Below are positions 697-63,864 of a stretch of DNA of 64,000 nt, piece after piece (within the stretch, counting starts at the first letter, position 1; each line of letters begins with the position of its first letter). The translations under genes and the position numbers were made by a program. The DNA is from Candidatus Accumulibacter sp. ACC003. GTDB lineage: Bacteria; Pseudomonadota; Gammaproteobacteria; Burkholderiales; Rhodocyclaceae. The notes below the pieces were generated by a model. It was not told where the DNA came from and did no database searches. It saw only the letters and a program-made list of their open reading frames with translations. The DNA is taken from assembly GCF_907163085.1 (NCBI RefSeq), contig NZ_CAJQTX010000007.1:496001-560000 (forward strand), given 5' to 3'.

Positions 697-1001
697 AGCT
701 GCGTTGACTTGGCACTGAACTAGCTGCGCGGCGCGCTATAGTAAAGAAGCCGGTTTCATGGCCAGCCCTGACGCATGACCTCCCCGAATCGACAGCACTT
801 GCCGGTTACGCCCACTTTCGCCGCCGAGGCGGCCAGATGGGGGTTGGCTAGCGGCAAGGGAGCGCTTGCGGCGCGGGGGTTTGGTGTTCAGTCAGTGGGA
901 CAGGAGAGGTCGAGGGAGCTCCGTTACGATCGCCAGGCGAGCCTTTCCCGGCGCGGGGTGCGCCGCGCTTGGGAAGATGTGTTGGGCAGGCCTGGGCAAG
1001 G
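697..1001. other. Intergenic stretch between the channel gene and a transposase
   Basis: There is no convincing gene here. The end of the mobile unit to the right must lie in this stretch, but I could not match a terminal inverted repeat. A small hairpin (CGCCGCC, loop, GGCGGC) lies near 821-834. Confidence 0.4.
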
Positions 1002-2522
1002 TTATTCGAGTTGCAGCAGGAACGGTTCGGCGAGAAGCAGACGCAGGCGTGCTGGGTCAAGCCAGGGCGCAGCACAGGAATTACGGATGAAGGCGATGGC
1101 GCCGCGCACACCGAGTTCTTGATACAGGTTGCGTAACTGCCGGGTGAAACGTGCCAGGGTATTGAACACATGCGCCAGGCGCATGAGGAGGTGATAGCCT
1201 TTCATGGCATTCCAGTCGAGGGCAAAGGCATGCTCGTAGTGGTAGCCCTGATGTTTTTCGACGAGGAAGCCCGCTTCGATGCCCCAACGGTGGCGGGCAC
1301 CGAGGTTGCAGCGCTCATGGACATTGTCTTGTCTGAGCGGTTGGCTGGAGAGCCAGGCGTGGCGCGATGTTTCGGTGACGGTCCTGGCCTGTTCATCGAT
1401 CTTTTCCCAGCTTTCCTCACAGACCACCAGGTTCAGCTTGAGACGCTGACGCCCGTTGGCCGCGAAGGCGTAGTCGATGTCGTTGACCCAGCTGAAGTGT
1501 TGTCGGCGCCTTCCCCAAGCGCGCTGCACGGCTTGTGGCTTCAGGGCGTGGAGTGCGCGGAACTCCTGCCAGACCGTGGACAAATCCTTGTCCTTAAGCA
1601 CGATCATGAACTGCCAGTGGGCGCGCAAGCAGCGCTGCATCACCGGCCCGTTGGCGTAAAGGCCGTCGAGCAGGAGCAGGATCGGCAGGCGGGGGAACAG
1701 CGTCTTGAGCCGGTCGCTCAAGCGCACAAAGCCGCGCAGCTCGCAGTCCTGCTTTTGCGCTTCGGTATCGCCCAGCGCGTGTTCGAGGAACTCGCTGAGC
1801 AGTGGGACGACCAGGCCGTTGTGGAAAGCCAGGCTGGCCTCGAGGACGTAGACGAAGTACTGGGTGTGGCGGGTTTCCTCCTTGCCGACGGTGCGCTGGA
1901 GGAGTTCCTCCGCCCAGAGGGTGTCGCCGGCGACCTTCTGCGAGCCGTCGATGGCGATGGGGTAGCAGTGGTTGATCAGATAGCGGCGGAAGCTCTTGCC
2001 GCGGATCAGCCGCTTCACCAGATCGACGTGGGCCTGCTCAAGGTGGTCAAGGTCGATGTCGCGCAGCAGCCGAAACAGGGTGTCGGCGTGTGGCAGGGTC
2101 TCGATCTCCGGGAACAGCAGGTGGAGGTTGGCCATGAACTGGGGACGGGATATTTCGCGGTTGGTCTCGCGCCGAGAGGAGAACTGAAAGACGAACATCA
2201 GCAGACCGTAAAGCAGCAGCGCGGTCAGCTTGTGGCGGCGCTTCCTGGGGTCTCTCGGGTCGGGAATTTGTTCCAGTTGCTCGAGCAAGGCGGGTAGCTC
2301 TTTGCGCAGGAGACGCGTCTTTTTGCTCACGGCGTCCTCGCGGGCCTCCCTTTCCTCGCCGACGGTCGCGAAGGCTGAGCATCGGTTGGGCAGAGAAGTG
2401 GGGGAGTGGAGGACTTGTCCACTCGCGCGCCGTTTCGCGTTCAGTGCCTTTTCCTGCCGTTTCTTCTCTGAGCGCAGCTCCTTGAGGGCAGCGCGTGTCG
2501 GGCGACGGCAGGGTTTGCTCAT
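1002..2522 (-). CDS. DDE transposase, IS4-like (subfamily unresolved)
   Basis: A 506-residue protein with a basic N-terminus (KELRSEKKRQEKAL) and a typical bacterial DDE layout: AIDGSQK (first Asp), LLLLDGLYANGP (second Asp) and RHRWGIEAGFLVEKHQGYHYEH (third acidic residue within an IE-x-x-F-like helix). The start ATG at 2520-2522 overlaps the stop of the upstream DUF4338 gene as ATGA, so translation is probably coupled. The frame stays open much further upstream, but only because DUF4338 is encoded there in another frame. The gene appears full-length, with no internal stop. IS4-like is a judgement from the DDE spacing; an ISNCY assignment is also possible. Confidence 0.75.
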   Translation of the reverse strand: MSKPCRRPTRAALKELRSEKKRQEKALNAKRRASGQVLHSPTSLPNRCSAFATVGEEREAREDAVSKKTRLLRKELPALLEQLEQIPDPRDPRKRRHKLTALLLYGLLMFVFQFSSRRETNREISRPQFMANLHLLFPEIETLPHADTLFRLLRDIDLDHLEQAHVDLVKRLIRGKSFRRYLINHCYPIAIDGSQKVAGDTLWAEELLQRTVGKEETRHTQYFVYVLEASLAFHNGLVVPLLSEFLEHALGDTEAQKQDCELRGFVRLSDRLKTLFPRLPILLLLDGLYANGPVMQRCLRAHWQFMIVLKDKDLSTVWQEFRALHALKPQAVQRAWGRRRQHFSWVNDIDYAFAANGRQRLKLNLVVCEESWEKIDEQARTVTETSRHAWLSSQPLRQDNVHERCNLGARHRWGIEAGFLVEKHQGYHYEHAFALDWNAMKGYHLLMRLAHVFNTLARFTRQLRNLYQELGVRGAIAFIRNSCAAPWLDPARLRLLLAEPFLLQLE

Positions 2523-3424
2523 GGCCGGGAGCTCCCAGGGGCGGCACACAGCCGGTCGCGACAATCGGCGCTCAGCGGTTTGAGCCACACCTGGCGGGGC
2601 GTGCTGCGATACGACTGGCCGGGGCGGGCCAGCCCGCGCCCGCTGGTTGCCCCGAGCAACTGCCAACCGGCCGCGCGGTAACAGGTGCCGGTATAGTGAC
2701 GAGGATCGACGAAAGTCTCCAGCAACAGGGGCTCGAAGCCCCAGTGATCGAGCCAGTCCGCGCGTGCGCGGCGCGCGAGTTGTCCGAGCACATGACTGGC
2801 CAGATGCGGCACCCGGACGTGGGGAAAGATCAGGAAGCGGCTGTTGTTCACCACCCGCGCCAGGTTCTCGCGGCGGGCCTGGGCCGTCCAGCCGATCCAG
2901 CGGTCGCGCACGGCGACCGCGCGGGCAGCGCCGGCCAGCAGGACGCTGCCGAGCCGCCGGTCGCCCGCCGTGATGAAGTAGCGCAGGCGGTAGCCGAAGG
3001 CCCCCTGGAAACCCAGTGGGTGCCAGCGCGCCACCAGCGCATCCCACTGCGCCACCAACGCCGCGTCGCGAACGACTTCCAGGCAGACCGGTGCGAGTGC
3101 CGACAGGGCGCAGTGCACGGGAAGCTCCCCGGTGACCGTATCTACGGGTGCCGCGGGCGGCGCGCAACGGCGTGCTGACGACGGCCTTATCGCCGGCAGT
3201 GTCAGCAGCCCGGCCGCCTGCAAACGCTCCAGAAACTCCAGGCAGGCGCTGATCTTCGCCGTCCCTGTCAGAGTGGTCCACCCCAGGTGCTCGCAGACCG
3301 TCGCCGCCAACTCCTTGCGCGCCAATCCCGGCAGCCACGCCACCGTCCCGCACACCTCGGCGATCTCCGCGGCGCTGAATACGCGACCGCAGTGCACCCA
3401 CTCCCCTTCGCTCGTTGCAACCAC
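2519..3424 (-). CDS. DUF4338 (DruA-like) protein associated with a transposase
   Basis: About 301 residues. The central and C-terminal parts carry the motifs shared with the two other DUF4338 proteins in this window: RYF, RDRWIGW, VVNNSRFLIFP, LASHVL, LLETFVDP, GTCYRAAGW and G-x-T-x-GRG. DUF4338 (PF14236) is the family of DruA from the Druantia anti-phage system, but copies linked to transposases are a separate context and their biochemical role is not established. The start is set at GTG 3424 because GGAGG sits seven bases upstream; a TTG at 3454 would extend the protein by ten residues. The stop overlaps the transposase start by four bases. It diverges clearly from the near-identical copies at 39.8 and 61.1 kb. 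Confidence 0.75.
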   Translation of the reverse strand: MVATSEGEWVHCGRVFSAAEIAEVCGTVAWLPGLARKELAATVCEHLGWTTLTGTAKISACLEFLERLQAAGLLTLPAIRPSSARRCAPPAAPVDTVTGELPVHCALSALAPVCLEVVRDAALVAQWDALVARWHPLGFQGAFGYRLRYFITAGDRRLGSVLLAGAARAVAVRDRWIGWTAQARRENLARVVNNSRFLIFPHVRVPHLASHVLGQLARRARADWLDHWGFEPLLLETFVDPRHYTGTCYRAAGWQLLGATSGRGLARPGQSYRSTPRQVWLKPLSADCRDRLCAAPGSSRP

Positions 3425-3518
3425 CACGATACCTCCGGCTGAAACGTGGACCAATGACCCTCCACCTATCCTGCCAGAAGTCCCCCCGGCTGTCTAGCTC
3501 CCTTGTGCGAAACCTTTT

Positions 3519-3912
3519 TTGCCTGCCCACCGCAACGCCTTGCCAGTACTGGGCTGGCGCAGTCATGCTTCAGCGCTGTTTCATGGCGTATTTGCCCCCT
3601 GTGGCGCGCATCGTCAACAAGCAACGCTGGCCAAGCGCGGCAAGGGCAAGCCCGCACGGCGGATGCGTCTGAAGCCACCACGCCTGCTGAACGTCGAGCC
3701 GCCATGACCTGGTGCAGCGCCTGAAGCGAGTCTTCAACATCGATATCGAGACCTGCAAGACTTGCGGAGGCGAGGTCAAGATCATCGCCTGCATCGAAGA
3801 TTCCCTGATCATGAAAAAGATTCTCACCACCTGGAGCGCAAAGACGCTTCCCGTGCCGCCCGGCGTTTACTCCCCATTTCGGGCGCCGCCCCAAGCCAGT
3901 TTGTTCGGCTGA
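3519..3912 (+). pseudogene. IS91-family transposase, frameshifted C-terminal fragment
   Basis: The stretch encodes pieces of the C-terminal end of an IS91-type (Y2) transposase in successive frames: FHGVFAPCGAHR in one, ERRAAMTW in another, then QRLKRVFNIDIETCKTCGG with the CxxC pair and VKIIACIED in a third. The closing ERKDA and PPQASLFG-like ends are again in different frames. The N-terminal and catalytic regions are missing. It is a decayed remnant next to the DUF4338 transposon, possibly truncated by that insertion. Confidence 0.75.
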
Positions 3913-35238: not shown

Positions 35239-38035
35239 ATGGGCGCTTCAAACAGAACCACAGAGGGCGTTCGAGCTGGCCAGGCGGTGACCAACAATTT
35301 CCCGAGCCCACGAGAGCTGATGCGCTCAAGGCATCCCGACCTATTCTCGGACAGTGTCGTTGAGGAGCGTCCTATCCTTGCGCGACCTGTCTTTGAATAT
35401 CACCTAGAAACCTTGACCGCTCGAAAGGAGGAGTATCAGTTCGAGCATTTCTGCCGGCTGATCGCCGAGAAAGAGATTTGCCCCAACTTGCGAGTGCAAA
35501 CGGGGCCTACGGGCGGGGGCGATAGCAAGGTCGATTCGGAAACGTACCCTGTCGCAAAGGAGATTTCCAACCGCTGGTGGCTCGGTGAGCCTTCGGGCGG
35601 TTCTGAACGCTGGGCATTCGCCTTCAGCGCAAAAAAGGCCTGGAAACCAAAACTCGAAGCTGACGTCGACAATATTCTTTCAACCCAGCGCGACTACAAG
35701 CGAATCTATTTCTTTTCGAACCAATTTGTCAGCGATAAATTGCGGGCCAGTGCCGAGGATGCGCTGGCCAAGAAGGCCGGTATCCCCGTCCACATTGTCG
35801 ACAGAAGCTGGCTTGTCGAGCGCGTCTACGGCCATGGGCACCTGCAGATCGCCATCTCAGCCCTCCAAATCGACGACGCTTCCGCTGAGCGGAAGGCTCG
35901 ACTCGGACCGAACGATACGGAACGCCTGGCGGACCTAGCAGAGCTGGATGCGCAGATATCTGACTCCTCGCGCTACGCGGGTGCGCAGTACCAACTAATC
36001 GAAGATTGTCTTCGCGCCGCGAGGCTCGCGCGTTCGCTCGACAAGCCCCGTCACGAGGTCGAGAGCCGATTTGTTATGGCTGACCGGCTGGCGCAGGAAC
36101 TCGCTATCCCACAGCAGCAGTTGCGCGTTGCCTATCATCGTGCGTGGACGGCTCATTGGTGGTTCGAAGACTACGCTGAATTCCTCCTGTTCTACGAAGA
36201 AGTCGAGCACTTTGCCTTGCAGTCGCAAGAGGCTCACGATCAGGAACGCCTGGTGAACCTGAACCACCTGCTGGTGAGCATCGACGAGCGGGGAGTCCTG
36301 CCCAAGGACAAAACAAGGGTCGATGACAGGCGGGTTGCGCTGGTCAAACACTTGGAGTCTCTTGAAGCGAATACCGCACGTCCGAACAACGCGCTGTACG
36401 CGCGCATGCTCAGGATTGTTGCGCGTCTAACCGACCTCATTCGAGCCCGCGATTTAAGCGCCGTCGGTGGGATTTGGAACGACCTCAAGGCGATTACACA
36501 GGAGTCGACGCAACTCGGGCAGTTTCCATTCGAATCATTGTCATCAATGGTTCATGAAATGAGCAAGATGTTTGATAGCCCCGGGTTTGACAGCCTTTAT
36601 GAAGTGGTCGTTAATGTTGAGCGCCAGCGAATCAGCGATGGCGTAGCCGGGGAGTCGTTTAGAGCCCGTGGTCTTCAAAAGCTAAAAAATGGCAAACCCT
36701 ACGAAGCCATCCGTTGGATTGGTCGCGCGGAAGAACTGTTCGTCAAGGAGGAGTATCAGCGCGAGTTGATCCTGACCCTTGCAGCGGGGAGCTATGCATA
36801 CCAAGAGGCTGGCTTGCTCTGGGCGGCGCGCAACAAACTCCTAGTCGCGATCGAGCGAGCCTTCCGCATGCTGAGTACGGAGGGCGAATTGCCGCTGATC
36901 TCTTACCGTTTGCTGCGGCGCCTGACTTGGATCGAACTGCAACTGGGCCGAATTCCACAGATTCTTCAGTCGCTCGTCTGGACCCGGTATTGCACCAGCT
37001 TGGTGAAACTCGAAGAGGACGACGAAGCCGGCGATAGAAACCACGAGGAGACGATGTTAATGCACGCCGTGTCCGGCATGTATTTCTTGAATGTTCCTTT
37101 CAATCGTTTGTCAGTGCTGGAACAACTGCCAGACGCGCTGCAGAGGCTTGGGCTCGACATTCCTCGGACGGCTGTCCTGTACGCATTGGGACACGAAAAG
37201 CGCGTGAATGAAGAGGATTTTCCAGAGGAGCCCAAGACGTCAGCCGAACTCCGCGATTTCTTCGAGAAATGGCAAGACCAACCAGCACGCCAGGACATGG
37301 CAGCCCAGCCGGTATTGAACGAGGGCTTCAGAACATCGCTTCGTTCGATCATATTGGGCGCCGAGTTCGTCATTGATTGCCCGAATGAACCCGCATCGGT
37401 TGGCGTCGCGGAGTCGCTATTGGGGGCCATGGAAGCATTCCTATCGACCAGCGATGAGGAGGACCTCTTACCCCATGCTGAACGGACGGTAATTCGTCTG
37501 CGTAAGGTCAAGGAACAAGCCACCGGGCCGACCTTTAGCTGGATTGAAGGTGCCCCAGGTGTGCACGCCGAGATACTGACTGGCGAAAACGTCACCTTTG
37601 ATGATGCTGAGGCCCTGATGCAATTTACCGATTTTCTCGGCCAGACATCGGCGGAAGTTGCCGCCCGCTGCTTCATCATCCGCTCCCCCATGGAGTGGAT
37701 GACTCGAGTCGCAGGGGACGAGCGCGGCCTCGCGCGTGCCACCATGCTTGGCAATGTCCTCGCGATCGGCAGAAACCTGTTTGGAGGCGACGCCAAGGTA
37801 CGCCTGACTGACTGGATCGATGCCGACGACAAGTATTACGACTGCCTGCGGGATCAGTACTGGCGGCCCCCAACGCCGGCAGCGGCGGGTTCTTCGCCCC
37901 AAGGGCCTGCCAAGCGAGGTGAAGGGCCACCGCCGAAGGAGCTGTTTGATACATCTCAGCGAAAGCACTCCGAGCGACAGGTGCTGTCCCCCATCAATGT
38001 GCCGATCTGGGATCAGGCCGGTTGGGGCGGTACCT
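35239..38035 (+). pseudogene. Predicted endonuclease-helical repeat protein, N-terminal part, interrupted by a transposon
   Basis: The 932 intact codons start at ATG 35239, with GGAG eleven bases upstream. Residues about 55-175 look like a PD-(D/E)XK restriction-endonuclease-like domain: FEHFCRLIAEKEICPNL, then TGPTGGGDSKVDSETYP (residues 88-104), and FAFSAKKAWKPK (127-138), in which D, the acidic residues and K have the order of Mrr-like active sites. Residues about 230-700 are helical and resemble tetratricopeptide-type repeats. Reading past 38035 enters the transposon end and stops at 38068-38070. The missing end is found at 43138-43697. The layout resembles anti-phage effectors with an N-terminal nuclease, but the function is inferred, and no partner gene is obvious. 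Confidence 0.7.
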
Positions 38036-38164
38036 TCAGATTTCCTGATCCCGGCCGGGAATGTAGGTAGAATTCCGGAATTGCACGTGGCACTTTATTT
38101 TGACGGCCATGATTTTCTTATGGCATAAACCAAGCTTCGCTAGGAGTGCAAGGAGGAGCAGACG

Positions 38165-39742
38165 TTGAGGCAATCGTGGCTTCCAGGGTTTCCGGATGGT
38201 GCGCAGAAAGTGGGAGAAGGGTTGGCGATTCTGGAGAAGGATGGCCAAGCGATCTACTTTGTTGGGGGAGACAATTACTTCTCGCACCCCGTAGGAGACG
38301 ACGCTGGCCGCAGGTTCGCTCTGACCAGCCTGATGGAGAACGGGCACGTCAAGGCGGTCGAACTGGAAAGGCCACCGCTGTGCATCCCGCACCGCACGCT
38401 GATGAACTGGGTGGGACAAAGCCGCAAAGCCGGGCCATCGTCTTTCTTTCGACCGGCGGCGGCGAGCCGGCCGCGGATCATGACGCCGGACAAGAGTGCC
38501 GAATGCGCGCGGCTGTTGAGCGAGGGAAAGCGTCCTGCCGAAGTGGCACGGCAGGTGGGCGTCCAGGAGTCGACGCTGCGCAAGGCGATCCGGCGCCAGG
38601 GCGTGCCGCAGTTGGCCGCCTTGCCGCAAGAGGCAGGGGAGTTGGAAGCGGCGAGCACCAAGAGTGAGCGCAGCCGGGCGGATGCGGAAGCCGCCGCGGG
38701 GATGGGCACCGCCTGCACGCGCGCCGACGAGCGGATCCAAACGGCGCTGGGATTGGCGACCGGTGCGACGACGCGCTTCGAAGCGAGCCACGATGTGGCG
38801 ATGGGGGGGCTGTTGGCCGGCTTGCCGGCCTTGTGCGCGAACGGGCTACTGACCGGCCTGGATCGCCATCTCAAGCTGCCCCGGGGATTCTACAGCGCCT
38901 TGCACATCCTTCTCGTCCTCGGCTTCATGGCCCTGGGGCGAATCAAGCGGCCGGAACATCTGCGACAAACCTCGCCCGGAGAACTCGGCAAAGTCATCGG
39001 CCTGGACCGGGTACCGGAAGTCCGCACCCTGCGGGAAAAGGTCCATCTGCTGGCCAAGACGGGTGACCCGGCAGCCTGGATGCGGGATCTCGCGAAGCTC
39101 TGGATGGAAAGCGAGCCAGAAGAAGCGGGTTACCTGTATGTCGATGGTCATGTTCGGGTGTATCACGGCGAGCAGGCCAGGCTGTCGAAGCGCTACGTCT
39201 CGCGCGAACGCCTGTGCCTGCGGGGCACCACCGACTACTGGGTTAACGATGCCCTGGGTCGCCCGTTCTTTGTGGTTTCGCAGCCGCTCAATGACGGACT
39301 CGCCGAGACCCTGCTCAAGGACATCGTCCCCCAACTGCTGGAGATTGTCCCGGGACAGCCGACGCCGGCCGAACTGGACGCCGACCCGACCCTGCACCGG
39401 TTTGTCATGGTCTTCGATCGGGAAGGGGCCACCCAGAGTCTCCTCGGCAGACTCTGGAAACAGCGCATCGGCGCACTGACCTACCGCAAGAACGTCAAGG
39501 ACCTCTGGTCCGAAGAGGTGTTTCAGGAACAGGAAGTCCATCTGCCGGCAGGCGGCAGCACCGGGATGAAACTCGCCATGCGCGAAACCCGACTCGGCAC
39601 AGGCGATGGCAGCCTGGCCGTGAGCGAAGTTCGTCGGCTGACCCAGACGGGACATCAAACAGCCGTGATCACGACCGCCCGGCAACTCGGAAACACCACC
39701 ATCGCTGGGCGGATGTTCGCCCGTTGGTGCCAGGAAAACTAC
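38165..39742 (+). pseudogene. Large DDE-type transposase, N-terminal part, interrupted by an IS66-type element
   Basis: These 526 codons begin at TTG 38165, with AAGGAGGAG eight to sixteen bases upstream. A helix-turn-helix region reads AEVARQVGVQESTLRKAIRR. The catalytic domain has LYVDGHVRVYHG (first Asp) and VMVFDREGATQSLLG (second Asp). The chain breaks after FARWCQENY, where the IS66-type element begins, and resumes at 42467. Joined, it gives about 736 residues. I recognise it as a large bacterial transposase-like family but cannot name the IS family. Confidence 0.75.
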
Positions 39743-39791
39743 GTAAGTATTCGGCCAACCCGTAGCGCGCCAGCGCCATTGCCGAGGCGGG

Positions 39792-40649
39792 TTAGCGGCA
39801 GAGGACTGATCGGAAGGCTCTGTGAAGGGGGTAGAGCCAGATGTCCTTGATCGGGAGGATGGACTTGCTGGTGGGGCATTTCTTGCCTCGCCCGGCGGTT
39901 TGACCGACCTTGATCCAGTTGGCGGCCTGGTAGCAGGTGCCGCGATGGCGGGGCGTCTCGACGAAGGTTTCGAGCAGTACGGGGCGGTAGCCGTAGCGCG
40001 CCAGCCAGTCCTTGGGCAGTTGCCGCTGCATAAGCGAGAGGATCTTGGAGGCCAGGCCCTTGCACTGGATCCAGGGCAGGATCAGAAAGCGGGCATTGTT
40101 CACCACCAGTTGCAGGTTCCTTTGTCGCTGCTCATCGTGCCAACCGATGAATTGCTCGCGCGCGGCGAGTTTCCAGGCGCTGGCGCCGAAGCTGAGCAAG
40201 GCGACCAGGGTCTCGCCGGCGAAGACGAAGTAGCGGCTCTGACTGCCCGCCATGGGCGTGTGGCCGAGATAGTGGTAGCGGGCGATGTACTCGTTCCACA
40301 GACGCGAGTTCGCCGAACCGACGACCTGATGCAGACGCAGCGGCGGCAGTTCATGCACCGGCTGAGTGAGCAACGGTTGTGGATCGGTGGCGTGAGTAGG
40401 CAGATACTCGGGTTGGCGAGGAGCGGCCCGTCGTGCCGCCGGCAGGGTGAGCAGGCCGTCGGCCTGCATACGCAGCATGGCCACCCGGCAGGTCATATCC
40501 TTCAGCTCGCCATTGGGCTTACGCCAGTCGAAGAGCTCACACACCTGGCGCGACAGTTGCGCGCGGCTGCTGCCAGGATGGGCTTCGATCAGGCGGCAGA
40601 GGGCCTGCAGTTCGTCGTCGGTAAAGTGACGCCCGCAATAAGGCTTCAC
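39792..40649 (-). CDS. DUF4338 (DruA-like) protein, IS66-element passenger, copy 1
   Basis: 285 residues starting with GTG at 40647-40649, inside the tnpC stop (GTGA), so translation is coupled. An N-terminal winged-helix-like part (FTDDELQALCRLIEAHPGSS, RAQLSRQVCELFDW) is followed by the DUF4338 core: YHYLGHTPMAGSQSRYFVF, EQFIGWHDEQRQRNL, VVNNARFLILPWIQ, LASKILSLM, LLETFVETPRHRGTCYQAA and VGQTAGRGK. The core motifs match the protein at 2519-3424 although gene order and partner transposase differ. DruA of Druantia defines the family. A role in transposition, target choice or element protection is possible but unproven. Confidence 0.85.
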   Translation of the reverse strand: MKPYCGRHFTDDELQALCRLIEAHPGSSRAQLSRQVCELFDWRKPNGELKDMTCRVAMLRMQADGLLTLPAARRAAPRQPEYLPTHATDPQPLLTQPVHELPPLRLHQVVGSANSRLWNEYIARYHYLGHTPMAGSQSRYFVFAGETLVALLSFGASAWKLAAREQFIGWHDEQRQRNLQLVVNNARFLILPWIQCKGLASKILSLMQRQLPKDWLARYGYRPVLLETFVETPRHRGTCYQAANWIKVGQTAGRGKKCPTSKSILPIKDIWLYPLHRAFRSVLCR

Positions 40650-42346
40650 GAGCTATCGATGGGACGGCTCTGATCGACCGGGATGCCACGCATCTGAGCC
40701 AGTCGATCGGTCGCCATCGCCCAGGGCAGAAAGGCACTCAAGTCCGTCGGCGGCAGGTTGCCGTTGGCGGCGCAGGCCTCCAGATACGCCGTCAGCCAGG
40801 TGCGCGGGTTGATTCCCCACAAGCGCAGCGTCAGCAGCAAGCTGAACATCGTCGCGGCGAGTGCGCCGGACCAGAGACTGCCCGACCCATAGAAGTTCTT
40901 GCGTGCGACCACCGGCGTGCGCTGTGCGCGCTCGGCGGCATTATTGTCCATCGCCACCTCGGGGCGGTCGACAAAGACGGTCAGGCCGGACCAATGTTTG
41001 CGCATGCTTCGCAGCACCTTGCTCGCCGGCATTTTGAGCGCCGGGTTCGCCAGTTCGCTTTCCCGTTGACTGGCCATTTGCGTGATCGCCTGCCGCAAGG
41101 CGCGGTCGCGTTCGGCCCACTGTACTGGGTCGCTACGGACTTCCAGGCGCCGTCCATTCAAGTGGTAGAGCTGAGCGATCTGCTCGACCCAGGCCAGTGC
41201 CCAGTCCGCGAGCTCCGGATGGGCGTTGGCCAGTTCCAGGAAATCACGCCGCTGATGTGCCCAGCAGAAAGCCAGAATGAAGTGGTCAAGGACTCGCGCG
41301 AGCTTCTTGTAGGCCGAATAGCGATCACAGATGATGACTCCTCCGGCGCTACCGGAGAGCTCCCGGATCGGCACCGCCGCCGAGCGGCTCGGGTCGAGCA
41401 CGAAGTGGATGACCGATGGGCCGTGGAACACCCAGAAATACCAGCGATGTCCGACCTTCCCTTCGGTCTCGGCAAAGACCCGCCAGCGGGTCTCGTCTGC
41501 GTGCCACTGTTTCTCGCTGCGTAGTTGGCCAAGCAGTGCTTCTTCAAGCGGCTCGAACAGCGGTGCCAAGGCACGCAGTCCGCCGGCCACCGTTCCTGCC
41601 GAGAGCGTCAGTCCGTGGTCGGACAAGTCTCGCAGAAGCCGATGCGTCGGCTGGCCGTACAAGAACTTCGACAGCAGCAGGTGCACCCAGATCGACACGC
41701 CGTACTTTCCACGCGGGATCAATCGTGCCGGCGGTGGCGCGGTCAGAATACCCCGCGCGCCCGAACACTGACAGGTCCGCCGGTAGCGCCGCCGGCAGAT
41801 CTTCCGGCGGTAGGCCTTGACCTCGATCTCGAGGACTTCACTGTCTTCCGTGCCGGGAAAGTCGACGTAGCCCAGACCACAGTCCGGGCAATGCGGGCAG
41901 TCGATGTCGATGACCTCGATCTGCGTCGGCAAGTGACTTTCCGGGTTCCGCCCGTGACCCGCTGCTCCCGGTTGCTGACCTCGAGCTCGCGACGATTTTT
42001 GGTCCGCCGCCGGGTTCTTCTCGGCTCCCGAAGAGCGTTCTGACTTGCGACCAAACAGGCGTTTTTGCAGATCGCGGATCTTGCCCTTGGCCTGCTCCAG
42101 TTCGCTGCGCAAGGCCGCCTCGCGCGCCGCCGCTTGCGCCATTTCCACCCGATGAGCTGCCTCCGATTGCGCCAACCGAACCAGCGCTTGTCGATGTTGG
42201 CTCCGCCAGAAGCTGGCCTCCCAACGGAGCTTGATTTCCTGCTCCTTGGTTAGCGTCACCAACACCTCGGCGAACGGCGCCACTTGGCGGTGACTTGCCG
42301 CCGATCCTCCGCCAATGATGTCCGCACCCGTGTCCATGCGCCGCAT
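40646..42346 (-). CDS. tnpC: IS66-family transposase TnpC, copy 1
   Basis: 566 residues. The N-terminus is a coiled coil rich in Ala/Arg/Glu (AAREAALRSELEQAKGKIRD) ending in LFGRKSERS, then a zinc finger (IDCPHCPDCGLGYVDFPG). The DDE core has KQWHADETRWRVF, IICDRYSAYKKLARV and FCWAHQRRDF, and the IS66 C-terminal domain reads VAMDNNAAERAQRTPVVARK. The protein should cut and join the element's ends. The start is placed at ATG 42346 (MRRMD); a second ATG three codons on is possible. Full-length and apparently intact. Confidence 0.93.
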   Translation of the reverse strand: MRRMDTGADIIGGGSAASHRQVAPFAEVLVTLTKEQEIKLRWEASFWRSQHRQALVRLAQSEAAHRVEMAQAAAREAALRSELEQAKGKIRDLQKRLFGRKSERSSGAEKNPAADQKSSRARGQQPGAAGHGRNPESHLPTQIEVIDIDCPHCPDCGLGYVDFPGTEDSEVLEIEVKAYRRKICRRRYRRTCQCSGARGILTAPPPARLIPRGKYGVSIWVHLLLSKFLYGQPTHRLLRDLSDHGLTLSAGTVAGGLRALAPLFEPLEEALLGQLRSEKQWHADETRWRVFAETEGKVGHRWYFWVFHGPSVIHFVLDPSRSAAVPIRELSGSAGGVIICDRYSAYKKLARVLDHFILAFCWAHQRRDFLELANAHPELADWALAWVEQIAQLYHLNGRRLEVRSDPVQWAERDRALRQAITQMASQRESELANPALKMPASKVLRSMRKHWSGLTVFVDRPEVAMDNNAAERAQRTPVVARKNFYGSGSLWSGALAATMFSLLLTLRLWGINPRTWLTAYLEACAANGNLPPTDLSAFLPWAMATDRLAQMRGIPVDQSRPIDSS

Positions 42347-42466
42347 GGTGCCGGATTTCCGCTGCTGTGTCCAGTCCAGATTTCCGGTCTACCCGCCAAT
42401 CGCTGACTGAACCACGCCGACCAAAAAAGCGGGGGCTACGGGTTCACCGAATACTTACAAAACTAC

Positions 42467-43099
42467 TTCGCGTACATGATGGAACATTATGATATTGATG
42501 GGCTTATCGAGTACGGAGACGAATCTCTTCCCGGCACTCACCAGGTCGTTAACCCCCGCTGGCGGGAACTCGACAAGGCCGTCAGGCAAACCCGCCAGAG
42601 CGAAAGAAAACTGCAGGCCGCAATCGCCAGGACGGCCTTGAACGACGGCGGCGAAATCCAGAAAAACGCCGAGTCTGTCGAAGCACTGCAGGCCGTTCAG
42701 GAGGAGCTCAAGCGACTTTGCGCGGCGCGCAAGGCAAGCCCCCGAAAGGTGACGATCGACAGTCTGCCCGAGGCCGAGCGACCGACCCAACTGCCGCCGC
42801 TGAACAAGATGCTCTGCGATACCGTGAAAATAGTCGCCTACCGGGCCGAGACCGCCATGGTGGCGCTATTGCGCCGCCACTTGAAGAAGGAGGACGACGC
42901 ACGTGCGCTCATTCGCGAATTGTTCGTTTCTTCCGCTGACATCGAACCGAACGCGCTAGCCAACACCCTGACCATCAAAATTCACCGGATAGCCAGCCCA
43001 GCTCATGATCGCGCTATCGCCGCGCTCCTCGAGGAACTCACCCTGCAAGATTTTCCGCATCCGGAAACCGGGGCAAGAATGACCTTCACTCTTGTCTGA
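42467..43099 (+). pseudogene. Large DDE-type transposase, C-terminal part
   Basis: These 210 codons continue in frame from the piece ending at 39742 once the IS66-type element and one AAAACTAC copy are removed: the join reads WCQENY then FAYMMEHYDIDGLIEYG. The helix around FAYMMEHYDID should carry the third acidic residue of the DDE triad. The segment ends with FPHPETGARMTFTLV. The right inverted repeat of the outer transposon begins 20 bases later. Confidence 0.75.
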
Positions 43100-43137
43100 A
43101 GTGCCAACCCGGTTTCCTCCGAGATCAGGAAATCTGA

Positions 43138-43697
43138 CCTTGTACGGCTGGCCAGGATCGGCACCACCCTTCATGGGTCTGCTATTCCGAAACATGGAGG
43201 CAGCTACAGAGATTTTTTCTGAATGGAACAACCGGTTTGGGCATGCAGACAAGGACGATGAGCTGCGTATCGCGATCATAACTGGAATCTCGAAGGCGAA
43301 TCCGACCCACTATGCCTTAATCATTGGACCCAATATCGACCGAATCGAGAGGACGCCGGAAATAAGCAAGACTTTTGTTTTGGTGTCGCGCGTTAACCGG
43401 ATGACACCTGAGAGCACCAAGAATCTCGATGCTTTCCTGAAGGAGTTCGACAAATACGGCGCCTATTACCTAATGCCGGTCAAGCTGCCTGACAAGCCTG
43501 ACGAAGTACCCCATCTGGAGTCCAAGCACCATTTGCTCAAGGGGCATATCCATATCCGTCCTGCTTGGCAAATCGGCGAACACGATTTCGACATGGTGGC
43601 ATTGGACGTAGACGAAGTCCCAGTCATTCCCGACGGGATCACTGACGCGCCGGTGCTCAAAGCGATGGCGCGAAAGCGGGAGCGGTCAGGCAAGTAG
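43138..43697 (+). pseudogene. Predicted endonuclease-helical repeat protein, C-terminal part
   Basis: These 185 codons, from the codon TTG completed across the junction, restore the C-terminus of the gene starting at 35239: WGGT then LYGWPGSAPPFMGLLFRN, AATEIFSEWNNRFG, and KANPTHYALIIG. The domain is well formed, with alternating strands and helices and no stop before 43695-43697, which supports recent disruption. An ATG at 43092 lies inside the transposon end and is not the natural start. The domain family is not known to me. Confidence 0.7.
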
Positions 43698-45127: not shown

Positions 45128-45379
45128 ATGAGCACAATGAATATTTCCTTGCCCGACAGCCTGAAGTCCTTCGTGGACGAGCAGGTGAGCGAACGTGGCT
45201 ACGGCACCAGTAGTGAGTACGTGCGCGCATTGATCCGCAAGGATCAGGATCGTCAGCACTTGCGTGGTTTGTTGTTGGCCGGCGTAGCTACTGCGCCGAC
45301 GTCGCCGGCTGATGCCGCCTACTTCGAAAGTCTGCGTGGCCGGGTACACAAAGCCGCCAAGTCGGTTTCTCGCGGGTGA
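45128..45379 (+). CDS. parD: ParD-family antitoxin
   Basis: An 83-residue protein with a ribbon-helix-helix N-terminus (NISLPDSLKSFVDEQVSERG, TSSEYVRALIRKD), the usual ParD/CC2985-type start. It should bind its own operator and neutralise the ParE toxin through its C-terminal part. It overlaps parE by four bases (GTGA), standard for such pairs. The 11-bp stem-loop 105 bases upstream may or may not be part of its control. Confidence 0.9.
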   Translation: MSTMNISLPDSLKSFVDEQVSERGYGTSSEYVRALIRKDQDRQHLRGLLLAGVATAPTSPADAAYFESLRGRVHKAAKSVSRG

Positions 45380-45708
45380 AGGTCAAGCCCGTCGTTCCCC
45401 GTGAACGGGCAAACCAGGACGTCGACGACGCGATAGCTTACTACCTCGAAGAGGCTTCCTGGGCGGTGGCGCTGGGCTTCATTGACGCACTGGAACGGAG
45501 CTATACCCAGATCGCGCGCTATCCTGGCACGGGTTCGCCTCGCTATGGGCATGAGTTGGACCTTCCCGGCCTACGCGCCTGGGCGCTGTCGTCCTACCCC
45601 TACCTCGTGTTCTACGTCGAGCAACCGAACCACATCGACGTCTGGCGCATACTGCATGGCCAGAGCGACATTCCCGCCTGGATGCAGGATCCAGACGTCT
45701 TCTCCTGA
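45376..45708 (+). CDS. parE: ParE/RelE-superfamily toxin
   Basis: A 110-residue protein with the ParE fold pattern: VPRERANQDVDDAIAYYLEE, FIDALERSYTQIARYPGTGS, LPGLRAWALSSYPYLVFYVE and WRILHGQSDIPAWM. ParE toxins poison DNA gyrase. The start is GTG 45376, inside the parD stop. The pair stabilises the accessory region or contributes to stress and phage response; which one cannot be read from the sequence. Confidence 0.9.
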   Translation: MKVKPVVPRERANQDVDDAIAYYLEEASWAVALGFIDALERSYTQIARYPGTGSPRYGHELDLPGLRAWALSSYPYLVFYVEQPNHIDVWRILHGQSDIPAWMQDPDVFS

Positions 45709-60955: not shown

Positions 60956-61120
60956 TAATTCCTGTGAAAACAGATAGTTGGCAAGCCCGTTAATTACTTT
61001 AGCATATGAAGGGCGTCATACAATTACCCTTTATAAACAATACGTTACAGCGCAATTATGCAATGAAAATGGTAAGTATTCGGCCAACCCGTAGTGAGCC
61101 AGCGCCGTTGGCGAGGCCGG

Positions 61121-61978
61121 TTAGCGGCAGAGGATTGATCGGAAGGCTCTGTGAAGGGGATAGAGCCAGATATCCTTGATCGGGAGGATGGGCTTGCTGG
61201 TGGGGCACTTCTTGCCTCGGCCGGCGGTTTGGCCGACCTTGATCCAGTTGGCGGCCTGGTAGCAGGTGCCGCGATGGCGGGGGGTCTCGACGAAGGTTTC
61301 GAGCAGCACGGGGCGGTAACCGTAGCGCGCCAGCCAGTCCTTGGGCAGTTGCCGCTGCATGAGCGAGAGGATCTTGGAGGCCAGGCCCTTGCACTGGATC
61401 CAGGGCAGGATCAGAAAGCGGGCATTGTTCACCACCAGTTGCAGGTTCCTTTGTCGCTGCTCATCGTGCCAACCGATGAATTGCTCGCGCGCGGCGAGTT
61501 TCCAGGCGCTGGCGGCGAAGCTGAGCAAGGCGACGAGTGTCTCGCCGGCGAAGACGAAGTATCGGCTCTGACTGCCGGCCATGGGCGTGTGGCCGAGATA
61601 GTGGTAACGAGCGATGTACTCGTTCCACAGACGCGAGTTCGCGGAACCGACGACCTGTCGCACCGAGAGAGGCGGCAGTTCATGCACCGGCTGAGTGAGC
61701 AAGGGTTGTGGATCGGTGGCGTGCGTGGGCCGATACTCGGGTTGGCGAGGAGCGGTCCGTCGTGCAGCCGGCAGGGTGAGCAGGCCGTCGGCTTGCATGC
61801 GCAGCATGGCCACCCGGCAGGTCATATCCTTCAGCTCACCATTGGGCTTGCGCCAGTCGAAGAGCTCGCACACCTGACGCGAGAGTTGTGCGCGGCTGGC
61901 GCCGGGAGGGGCCTCGATCAGGCCGCGGATCGTCTGCAGTTCGTCGGCGGTAAAGTGGCGCCCGCAATAAGGCTTCAC
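61121..61978 (-). CDS. DUF4338 (DruA-like) protein, IS66-element passenger, copy 2
   Basis: 285 residues, nearly identical to copy 1. The same motifs are present (VVNNARFLILPWIQ, LLETFVETPRHRGTCYQAA, VGQTAGRGK), with scattered substitutions such as ASAWKLA retained after FAASA instead of FGASA. The GTG start overlaps the tnpC stop in the same GTGA arrangement. Conservation of the frame and of the coupling in two diverged copies argues that the protein is under selection with the element. Confidence 0.85.
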   Translation of the reverse strand: MKPYCGRHFTADELQTIRGLIEAPPGASRAQLSRQVCELFDWRKPNGELKDMTCRVAMLRMQADGLLTLPAARRTAPRQPEYRPTHATDPQPLLTQPVHELPPLSVRQVVGSANSRLWNEYIARYHYLGHTPMAGSQSRYFVFAGETLVALLSFAASAWKLAAREQFIGWHDEQRQRNLQLVVNNARFLILPWIQCKGLASKILSLMQRQLPKDWLARYGYRPVLLETFVETPRHRGTCYQAANWIKVGQTAGRGKKCPTSKPILPIKDIWLYPLHRAFRSILCR

Positions 61979-63711
61979 GAGCTATCGATGGAAGGTGTCT
62001 GATTGACCGGGATGGCACGCATCTGGGCCAGACGATCGGTCGCCATCGCCCAGGGCAGAAAGGCGCTCAAGTCCGCTGGCGGCTGGTTGCCGTTGGCGGC
62101 GCAGGCTTCCAGATAAGCCGTCAGCCAGATGCGCGGGTTGATTTTCCACAAGCGCAGCGTCAGCAGCAGGCTGAACATCGTCGCGGCGAGAGCGCCGGAC
62201 CAGTGACTACCCGACCCATAGAAGTTCTTGCGTGCGACCACCGGCGTACGCTGGGCGCGTTCGGCGGCATTATTGTCCATCGCCACCTCGGGGCGGTCGA
62301 CAAACACGGTCAAGCCGGACCAATGCTTGTGCATGCTTCGCAGCACCTTGCTCGCCGGCATTTTGAGCGCCGGGTTTGCCAGTTCGCGTTCGCGCTGACT
62401 GGCCATCTGCACGATCGCCTGCCGCAAGAGGCGGTCGCGTTCGGCCCACTGTACGGGGTCGCTACGGACTTCCAGGCGCCGTCCATTCAAGTGGTAGAGC
62501 TGAGCGATCTGCTCAACCCAGGCCAGTGCCCAGTCCGCGAGTTCCGGATGGGCGTTGGCCAGTTCCAGGAAGTCACGCCGCTGATGTGCCCAGCAGAAGG
62601 CCAGAACGAAGTGGTCAAGGACTCGCGCGAGTTTCTTGTAGCCCGCGTAGCGATCACAGATGATGACGCCTCCGGCGCTACCGGAGAGTTCCCGGATCGG
62701 CACCGCCGCCGAGCGGCTCGGGTCGAGCACGAAGTGGATGACCGATGGGCCGTGGAACACCCAGAAATACCAGCGATGTCCGACCTTCCCTTCGGTCTCG
62801 GCAAAAACCCGCCAGCGAGTCTCGTCCGCGTGCCACTGTTTCTCGCGACGCAGTCGGCCAAGCAGTGCTTCTTCAAGCGGCTCGAACAGCGGTGCCAAGG
62901 CACGAAGTCCGCCGGCCACCGTTCCTGCCGAAAGCCTCAGTTGGTGGTCGGACCAGTCTCGTAGAAGCCGATGCGTCGGCTGGCCGTACAAGAACTTCGA
63001 CAGCAGCAAGTGCACCCAAATCGACACGCCGTACTTTCCACGCGGGATCAATCGTGCCGGCGGTGGCGCGGTCAGAATGCCGCGGGCGCCCGGGCACTGA
63101 CAGGTCCGCCGGTAGCGCCGCCGGCAGATCTTCCGGCGGTAGGCTTTGACCTCGATCTCGAGAACTTCACTGTCTTCTGTGCCGGGAAAGTCGACGTAGC
63201 TCAGACCACAGTCCGGGCAATGCGGGCAGTCGATGTCGATGACCTCGATCTGCGTCGGCAAGTGGCTTTCCGGATTCCGCCCGTGACCCGTTGCTCCCGG
63301 TTGATGACCTCGACCCCGCGACGACTTCTGGTCTGCTGCCGGGTTCTTCTCGGCTCCCGAAGAGCGTTCTGACTTGCGACCAAACAGGCGTTTTTGCAGA
63401 TCGCGGATCCGGCCCTGGGCCTGCTCGAGCTCGCTACGCAAGGCCGCCTCACGCGCCGCCGCTTGCTCCGCCGCACGCGCCGCCGCTTGCTCCGCCGCAC
63501 GCGCCATTTCCACCCGATGAGCGGCCTCCGATTCCGTCAAACGGACCAGCGCTTGCCGATGTTGGCTGCGCCAGAAGTTGGCCTCCCAACGGAGCTTGAT
63601 TTCCTGCTCCTTGGTCAACGTCACCAACACCTCGGCGAACGGCGCCACTTGGCGGTGACTTGCCGCCGATCCTCCGCAGATAATGTCCGTAGCCGTGCCC
63701 ATGCGCCGCAT
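61975..63711 (-). CDS. tnpC: IS66-family transposase TnpC, copy 2
   Basis: 578 residues, close to copy 1, with zinc finger IDCPHCPDCGLSYVDFPG, DDE motifs KQWHADETRWRVF and IICDRYAGYKK, and the C-terminal MDNNAAERAQRTPVVARK. The N-terminal coiled coil is 12 residues longer through repetition of AARAAEQ-like units. The start is placed at the ATG matching copy 1 (MRRMG), though the frame is open 26 codons further upstream. Confidence 0.92.
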   Translation of the reverse strand: MRRMGTATDIICGGSAASHRQVAPFAEVLVTLTKEQEIKLRWEANFWRSQHRQALVRLTESEAAHRVEMARAAEQAAARAAEQAAAREAALRSELEQAQGRIRDLQKRLFGRKSERSSGAEKNPAADQKSSRGRGHQPGATGHGRNPESHLPTQIEVIDIDCPHCPDCGLSYVDFPGTEDSEVLEIEVKAYRRKICRRRYRRTCQCPGARGILTAPPPARLIPRGKYGVSIWVHLLLSKFLYGQPTHRLLRDWSDHQLRLSAGTVAGGLRALAPLFEPLEEALLGRLRREKQWHADETRWRVFAETEGKVGHRWYFWVFHGPSVIHFVLDPSRSAAVPIRELSGSAGGVIICDRYAGYKKLARVLDHFVLAFCWAHQRRDFLELANAHPELADWALAWVEQIAQLYHLNGRRLEVRSDPVQWAERDRLLRQAIVQMASQRERELANPALKMPASKVLRSMHKHWSGLTVFVDRPEVAMDNNAAERAQRTPVVARKNFYGSGSHWSGALAATMFSLLLTLRLWKINPRIWLTAYLEACAANGNQPPADLSAFLPWAMATDRLAQMRAIPVNQTPSIDSS

Positions 63712-63864
63712 GGTGCCGGATTTCCGCTGCTGTGTCCAGTTCAGATCTCCGGGCTGCCCGCCAATCGCTGACGGAAGCTCGCCCACCAAAAAAACCGGGG
63801 CTACGGGTTCACCGAATACTTACTGAAAATGGGCAGCATTCAAGCCGCGGTCGGAACTATGCAT

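Follow-up and report, generated by a model that had tools for sequence, protein, structure and literature searches.

Nested transposons in a probable defence-nuclease gene of Candidatus Accumulibacter and the DruA-family gene of the inner element

Within the 64,000-nucleotide stretch of Candidatus Accumulibacter sp. ACC003 DNA analysed here (the window), a long reading frame stops and resumes beyond a set of transposase sequences. What broke this gene, and what do the inserted elements carry? The original prediction had described a nuclease-like gene interrupted by a transposon that is itself interrupted by an IS66-type element, and as a whole it was supported in part: the nested insertion stands, the CCT target duplication does not, and the nuclease identity has a moderate match in fold behind it. 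The split host frame and the outer and inner elements were all found at the positions claimed (Table 1).

Table 1. Features of the window
Feature	Position	Strand	Details
Host gene, left part	35239..38036	+	start ATG 35239 or GTG 35227; probable defence nuclease
Host gene, right part	43137..43697	+	
Outer transposon	38037..43136	+	18-nt inverted repeats 38037-38054 and 43119-43136
Outer target duplication, left copy	38032..38036		ACCTT, 5 bp
Outer target duplication, right copy	43137..43141		ACCTT, 5 bp
Outer transposase, left part	38165..39742	+	Transposase_29, PF21804, E 7.7e-109
Outer transposase, right part	42459..43099	+	Transposase_29, PF21804, E 1.9e-36
Inner IS66-family transposon	39743..42458	-	24-nt inverted repeats, 92% matched
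Inner target duplication	39735-39742 and 42459-42466		8 bp, AAAACTAC
TnpC, IS66 transposase	40646..42346	-	NCBIfam 302.1 bits (cut-off 180); Pfam 201 bits
DruA-family, Mom-like GNAT gene (predicted)	39792..40649	-	start overlaps TnpC stop by 4 bp
Second IS66-DruA copy	61072..63823	-	92% identical; duplication TGAAAATG
Type C DruA transposon	763..3578	-	2816 bp, 9-bp duplication; placed from L065/L078 coordinates
Type C genes	DruA 2519-3454; transposase 1002-2522	-	from L065/L078 coordinates

An insertion within an insertion

The locus at 35239..43697 consists of an IS66-family transposon inside a Transposase_29 transposon, which is itself inside, and breaks, a probable defence-nuclease gene. 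This nested insertion is confirmed and is ordinary in kind. The empty sites were checked without joining any sequences in silico. The two host flanks, searched separately, met in a Thiobacillus MAG (L015), where the left one ends at position 3226 and the right one begins at position 3222, with a 5-bp overlap and no gaps; this locus is an empty site of the outer insertion. The outer target duplication is thus ACCTT rather than CCT, and the outer span, rightly placed but given as 38036-43137, is corrected at both ends.

Removal of the inner element restores the outer transposase, as had been proposed, the separately searched outer halves overlapping by 8 bp in sibling copies (97.6-100% identity). 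Most uninterrupted siblings measure 2376 bp. A perfect 5-bp duplication flanks 26 of the 27 sibling matches listed, two of which, both in L091, have one end in common; the exception is L078. The 8-bp inner target is uninterrupted in 25 of these 27. The L089 and L092 matches measure 3520 bp, which is ~1.14 kb beyond the 2376-bp form, and further insertions or rearrangements are therefore likely there. The inner element bears the claimed 8-bp duplication and has 28 full-length matches in the genome (92-100% identity), and such a duplication was present in 17 of the 19 distinct full copies examined. Both insertions look recent, as suggested from the intact frames, the outer left half being 100% identical to several siblings and the inner element identical to three other copies.

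The order of the outer and inner insertions at this locus is not proven. Three Transposase_29 elements, those of the window, L085 and L086, carry an IS66-DruA element at the identical 8 bp, the L085 copy lying in the opposite orientation and the L086 copy being of a 93% subtype. Because these insertions comprise two orientations and two subtypes, repeated insertion is likelier than a composite origin, in which the outer element would have moved with the inner one already aboard. Three insertions at the same 8 bp occurred in 0 of 200,000 trials of a simulation assuming uniform insertion. A target motif was dropped as the cause of this hot spot, as no clear motif was found among 16 IS66-DruA insertion sites, a set that leaves out one L085 site repeating the window's target and two copies devoid of a duplication. 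A megablast search of the nested element against plasmids gave zero matches.

Six named loci related to the host gene were found, five of which encode the protein, including its C-terminal part, in one frame, and one of which (L020) matches in pieces only. Identity of the five uninterrupted relatives across the left part is 67-89%: values for the left and right parts are 89% and 85% in L015, 86% and 76% in a Nitrosomonadales MAG (L016), and 67-68% and 50-54% in L017-L019. Since these five and two distant relatives (32-33% to the L016 protein) possess the C-terminal part, the left part does not belong to a family that naturally ends near residue 932 and lacks the LYGWPG-containing domain, which would have argued against a broken gene. 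The tblastn alignments of both parts to L015 and L016 are continuous, in agreement with the absence of further frame damage. The gene was missing from the other 60 of the 61 genomes searched, and a relative was present in 2 others among 369 genomes of the class.

The host protein is likely, though not proven, to be a defence nuclease. Structure prediction for the L016 protein (mean pLDDT 65.6) places a TPR-like middle part after an N-terminal domain that aligns with AspBHI. For a putative Mrr-like nuclease fold, the support is this moderate match to AspBHI; Foldseek gave no match for the model at E <= 0.001. The host profile gave 0 matches to solved structures at E up to 1, and Pfam gave two weak matches among seven host relatives, each in a single member. 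The neighbourhood scans covered L018, where the gene is accompanied by Gabija GajA and GajB, a NERD-helicase and a further helicase with DUF2726, and L019, where none of the neighbours scanned matched PADLOC. Downstream of the broken gene, the window contains toxin-antitoxin genes encoding a ParD-like protein (just under the cut-off) and ParE (45128-45708).

The DruA-family gene and its transposase partners

The two frames scanned in the inner element encode TnpC and a DruA-family protein, and the other frames overlap them. Neither TnpA nor TnpB was identified in these two frames. The IS66 family includes a TnpC-only subgroup, ISBst12, and TnpA and TnpB are absent from TnpC-only forms. The DruA-family protein has 285 residues and matches PF14236 with 140.7 bits (cut-off 27, profile positions 32-222); Pfam and PADLOC both assign it to DruA.

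Several unrelated DDE transposases have relatives of this protein as partners or as fused domains. The genome contains 83 PF14236 matches, of which 32 are of the IS66 type, 25 of the ISAs1 type and 21 of type C, 4 are fused to a Tn5-type IS4 transposase and 1 is a short frame; these types were assigned by score and frame length, which are the sole basis for copies not read as DNA. In the ISAs1-type element (1908 bp, 9-10-bp duplications), DruA and DDE_Tnp_1_assoc form a fusion, with an A7 run as the passage into the DDE_Tnp_1 frame. In type C (2816 bp, 9-bp duplications; 2 of 21 broken), the DruA gene overlaps that of a DDE_Tnp_1_assoc transposase, for which no NCBIfam family exceeds its cut-off.

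The same pairings recur in relatives, together with ISKra4 and further IS66 lineages. On a plasmid of Candidatus Thiodictyon (L161), a protein annotated as an ISAs1 transposase has its DruA match close to the N terminus, and for another Thiodictyon DruA copy (L160) the gene table lists no DDE transposase immediately alongside. In a sample of the phylum, DruA occurs in 16 further genomes, which we read as follows: a transposase is visible in 8 (two of them marginal, L114 being at a contig end and L118 relying on a frame devoid of a Pfam match), 5 are of other kinds and 3 have fragments or contig ends. At L107:1333-3635, a gene of the DruA family whose match spans almost the full profile overlaps a TniQ gene, which hints at one more tie of DruA to the machinery of transposition. 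In L115 and L122, a DruA-family domain in two pieces precedes an AAA/STAND-like NTPase within one frame, an arrangement taken from Pfam for L115 and judged similar by eye for L122. No title or abstract opening among the literature matches listed pairs DUF4338/DruA with transposases; prior knowledge in ISfinder is possible.

On a DruA tree of 27 rows, nine labels need 8 changes, the minimum possible, compared with a shuffled mean of 18.8. Each of ISAs1, type C, stand-alone DruA and the three IS66 labels is set apart by a single branch, and the IS4 label needs 3 changes. DruA follows its transposase partner only in part, because the IS66 label had been divided by similarity beforehand and IS66c groups apart from IS66a and IS66b.

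What the DruA-family enzyme may do for its transposons

We lean, cautiously, towards an explanation in which the Mom-like DruA modifies transposon or target DNA. Phage Mu uses Mom DNA modification against host restriction. By analogy, the DruA-family enzyme would modify bases, probably adenine, and the modified element would escape restriction or gain a transposition advantage. In ISAs1-type and IS4-type elements the enzyme is tied to the transposase itself, and in these genomes DruA would be mainly a transposon accessory rather than an anti-phage system.

Structural comparison shows a Mom-like GNAT fold, and PMC10853773 names DUF4338 a GNAT; Mom is likewise a GNAT in PMC7824862, which deals with phage and bacterial momylation systems. 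The residues facing Mom-invariant H48 and Y149 (the invariants H48, R101 and Y149 being those of six aligned Mom proteins) are conserved in 24/24 transposon DruA; R187 of DruA is invariant, yet one column off Mom R101. Profile comparison gave a probability of 84 for the wider Mom set against transposon DruA, 2.3 for a narrow Mom alignment against a mixed DruA alignment and 0.2 for stand-alone DruA against Mom. Against solved structures, the DruA profile yielded only 5 Windbeutel rows (0.09-0.61), taken as chance. From fold and conserved residues, we infer that the inner-element protein is a GNAT acyltransferase that resembles Mom and acts on DNA.

A GNAT of this fold might instead have the transposase or a host protein as its substrate, or bind DNA and steer target choice, and leave DNA unmodified. 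This seems to us rather doubtful: in both programs the best structural match was Mom (8bv8), whose H48 and Y149 counterparts are kept as described, and the lack of a clear motif in the 16 sites argues against target steering.

DNA modification for the transposon's benefit also has to be weighed against anti-phage cargo, by which transposons would spread a Druantia-like defence gene. The family name given by Pfam and PADLOC and the profile similarity between transposon and stand-alone DruA (probability 97) favour cargo, but we hold it to be improbable, as the transposon clade is separated from stand-alone DruA by a 100/100 split with branches of 2.6 and 2.5, H126, R187, E227, Y240 and W245 are present in 0/3 stand-alone DruA of the alignment used, the partner of DruA in the IS66 element is TnpC, and fusion to a transposase would be odd for cargo. 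Least probable of all is a neutral hitch-hiker in an ordinary nested insertion, which is expected in a genome this rich in elements: DruA pairs with several transposase types and appears from dN/dS to be under purifying selection like its transposase (0.146-0.268 in six DruA pairs; 0.165-0.286 in five usable transposase pairs, leaving out an ISAs1 second-ORF pair with one stop, 54.7% identity and a ratio of 0.219).

A broader version of the DNA-modification reading is unlikely in its full extent. Unrelated DDE transposon families would have acquired the Mom-like enzyme, in some cases fused to the transposase, to mark DNA against restriction; this would have enabled the burst of DruA elements (28 full IS66, ~25 ISAs1-type and ~19 type-C copies), one of which lies in a gene resembling a modification-dependent nuclease. 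If true, loss of the host nuclease would lift an obstacle to DNA marked in just this way.

Significance and comparison with known systems

Transposons with an accessory gene are already known; the unexpected part is the pairing of a candidate Mom-like DruA gene with several transposon families. A family named for an anti-phage system is mostly a transposon component in this genome and several relatives, which means that annotation software may report too many defence genes. Small transposons may also possess their own DNA modification, like phage Mu.

The N-terminal domain of the host protein resembles AspBHI, a DNA modification-dependent endonuclease; unlike AspBHI, the host protein continues into a TPR-like repeat, and its C-terminal region lacks a confident model. 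The inner element agrees with the IS66 family in its TnpC over the NCBIfam cut-off, its inverted ends and its 8-bp duplication, and differs by the DruA/Mom-like gene overlapping tnpC. It has no Druantia partner; its DruA belongs to the same Pfam family (PF14236) as Druantia DruA, whereas transposon DruA form a separate clade in which the profile ends are unmatched and residues lacking from 3/3 stand-alone DruA are kept. With phage Mu Mom (PF25680), the DruA-family protein, a predicted DNA-modifying enzyme, shares aligned H-Y and Y-x-A motifs, but it scores below the Pfam Mom cut-off (18.2 bits against 27.1), has an extra N-terminal helical part, and is either fused to an IS transposase or carried alongside one.
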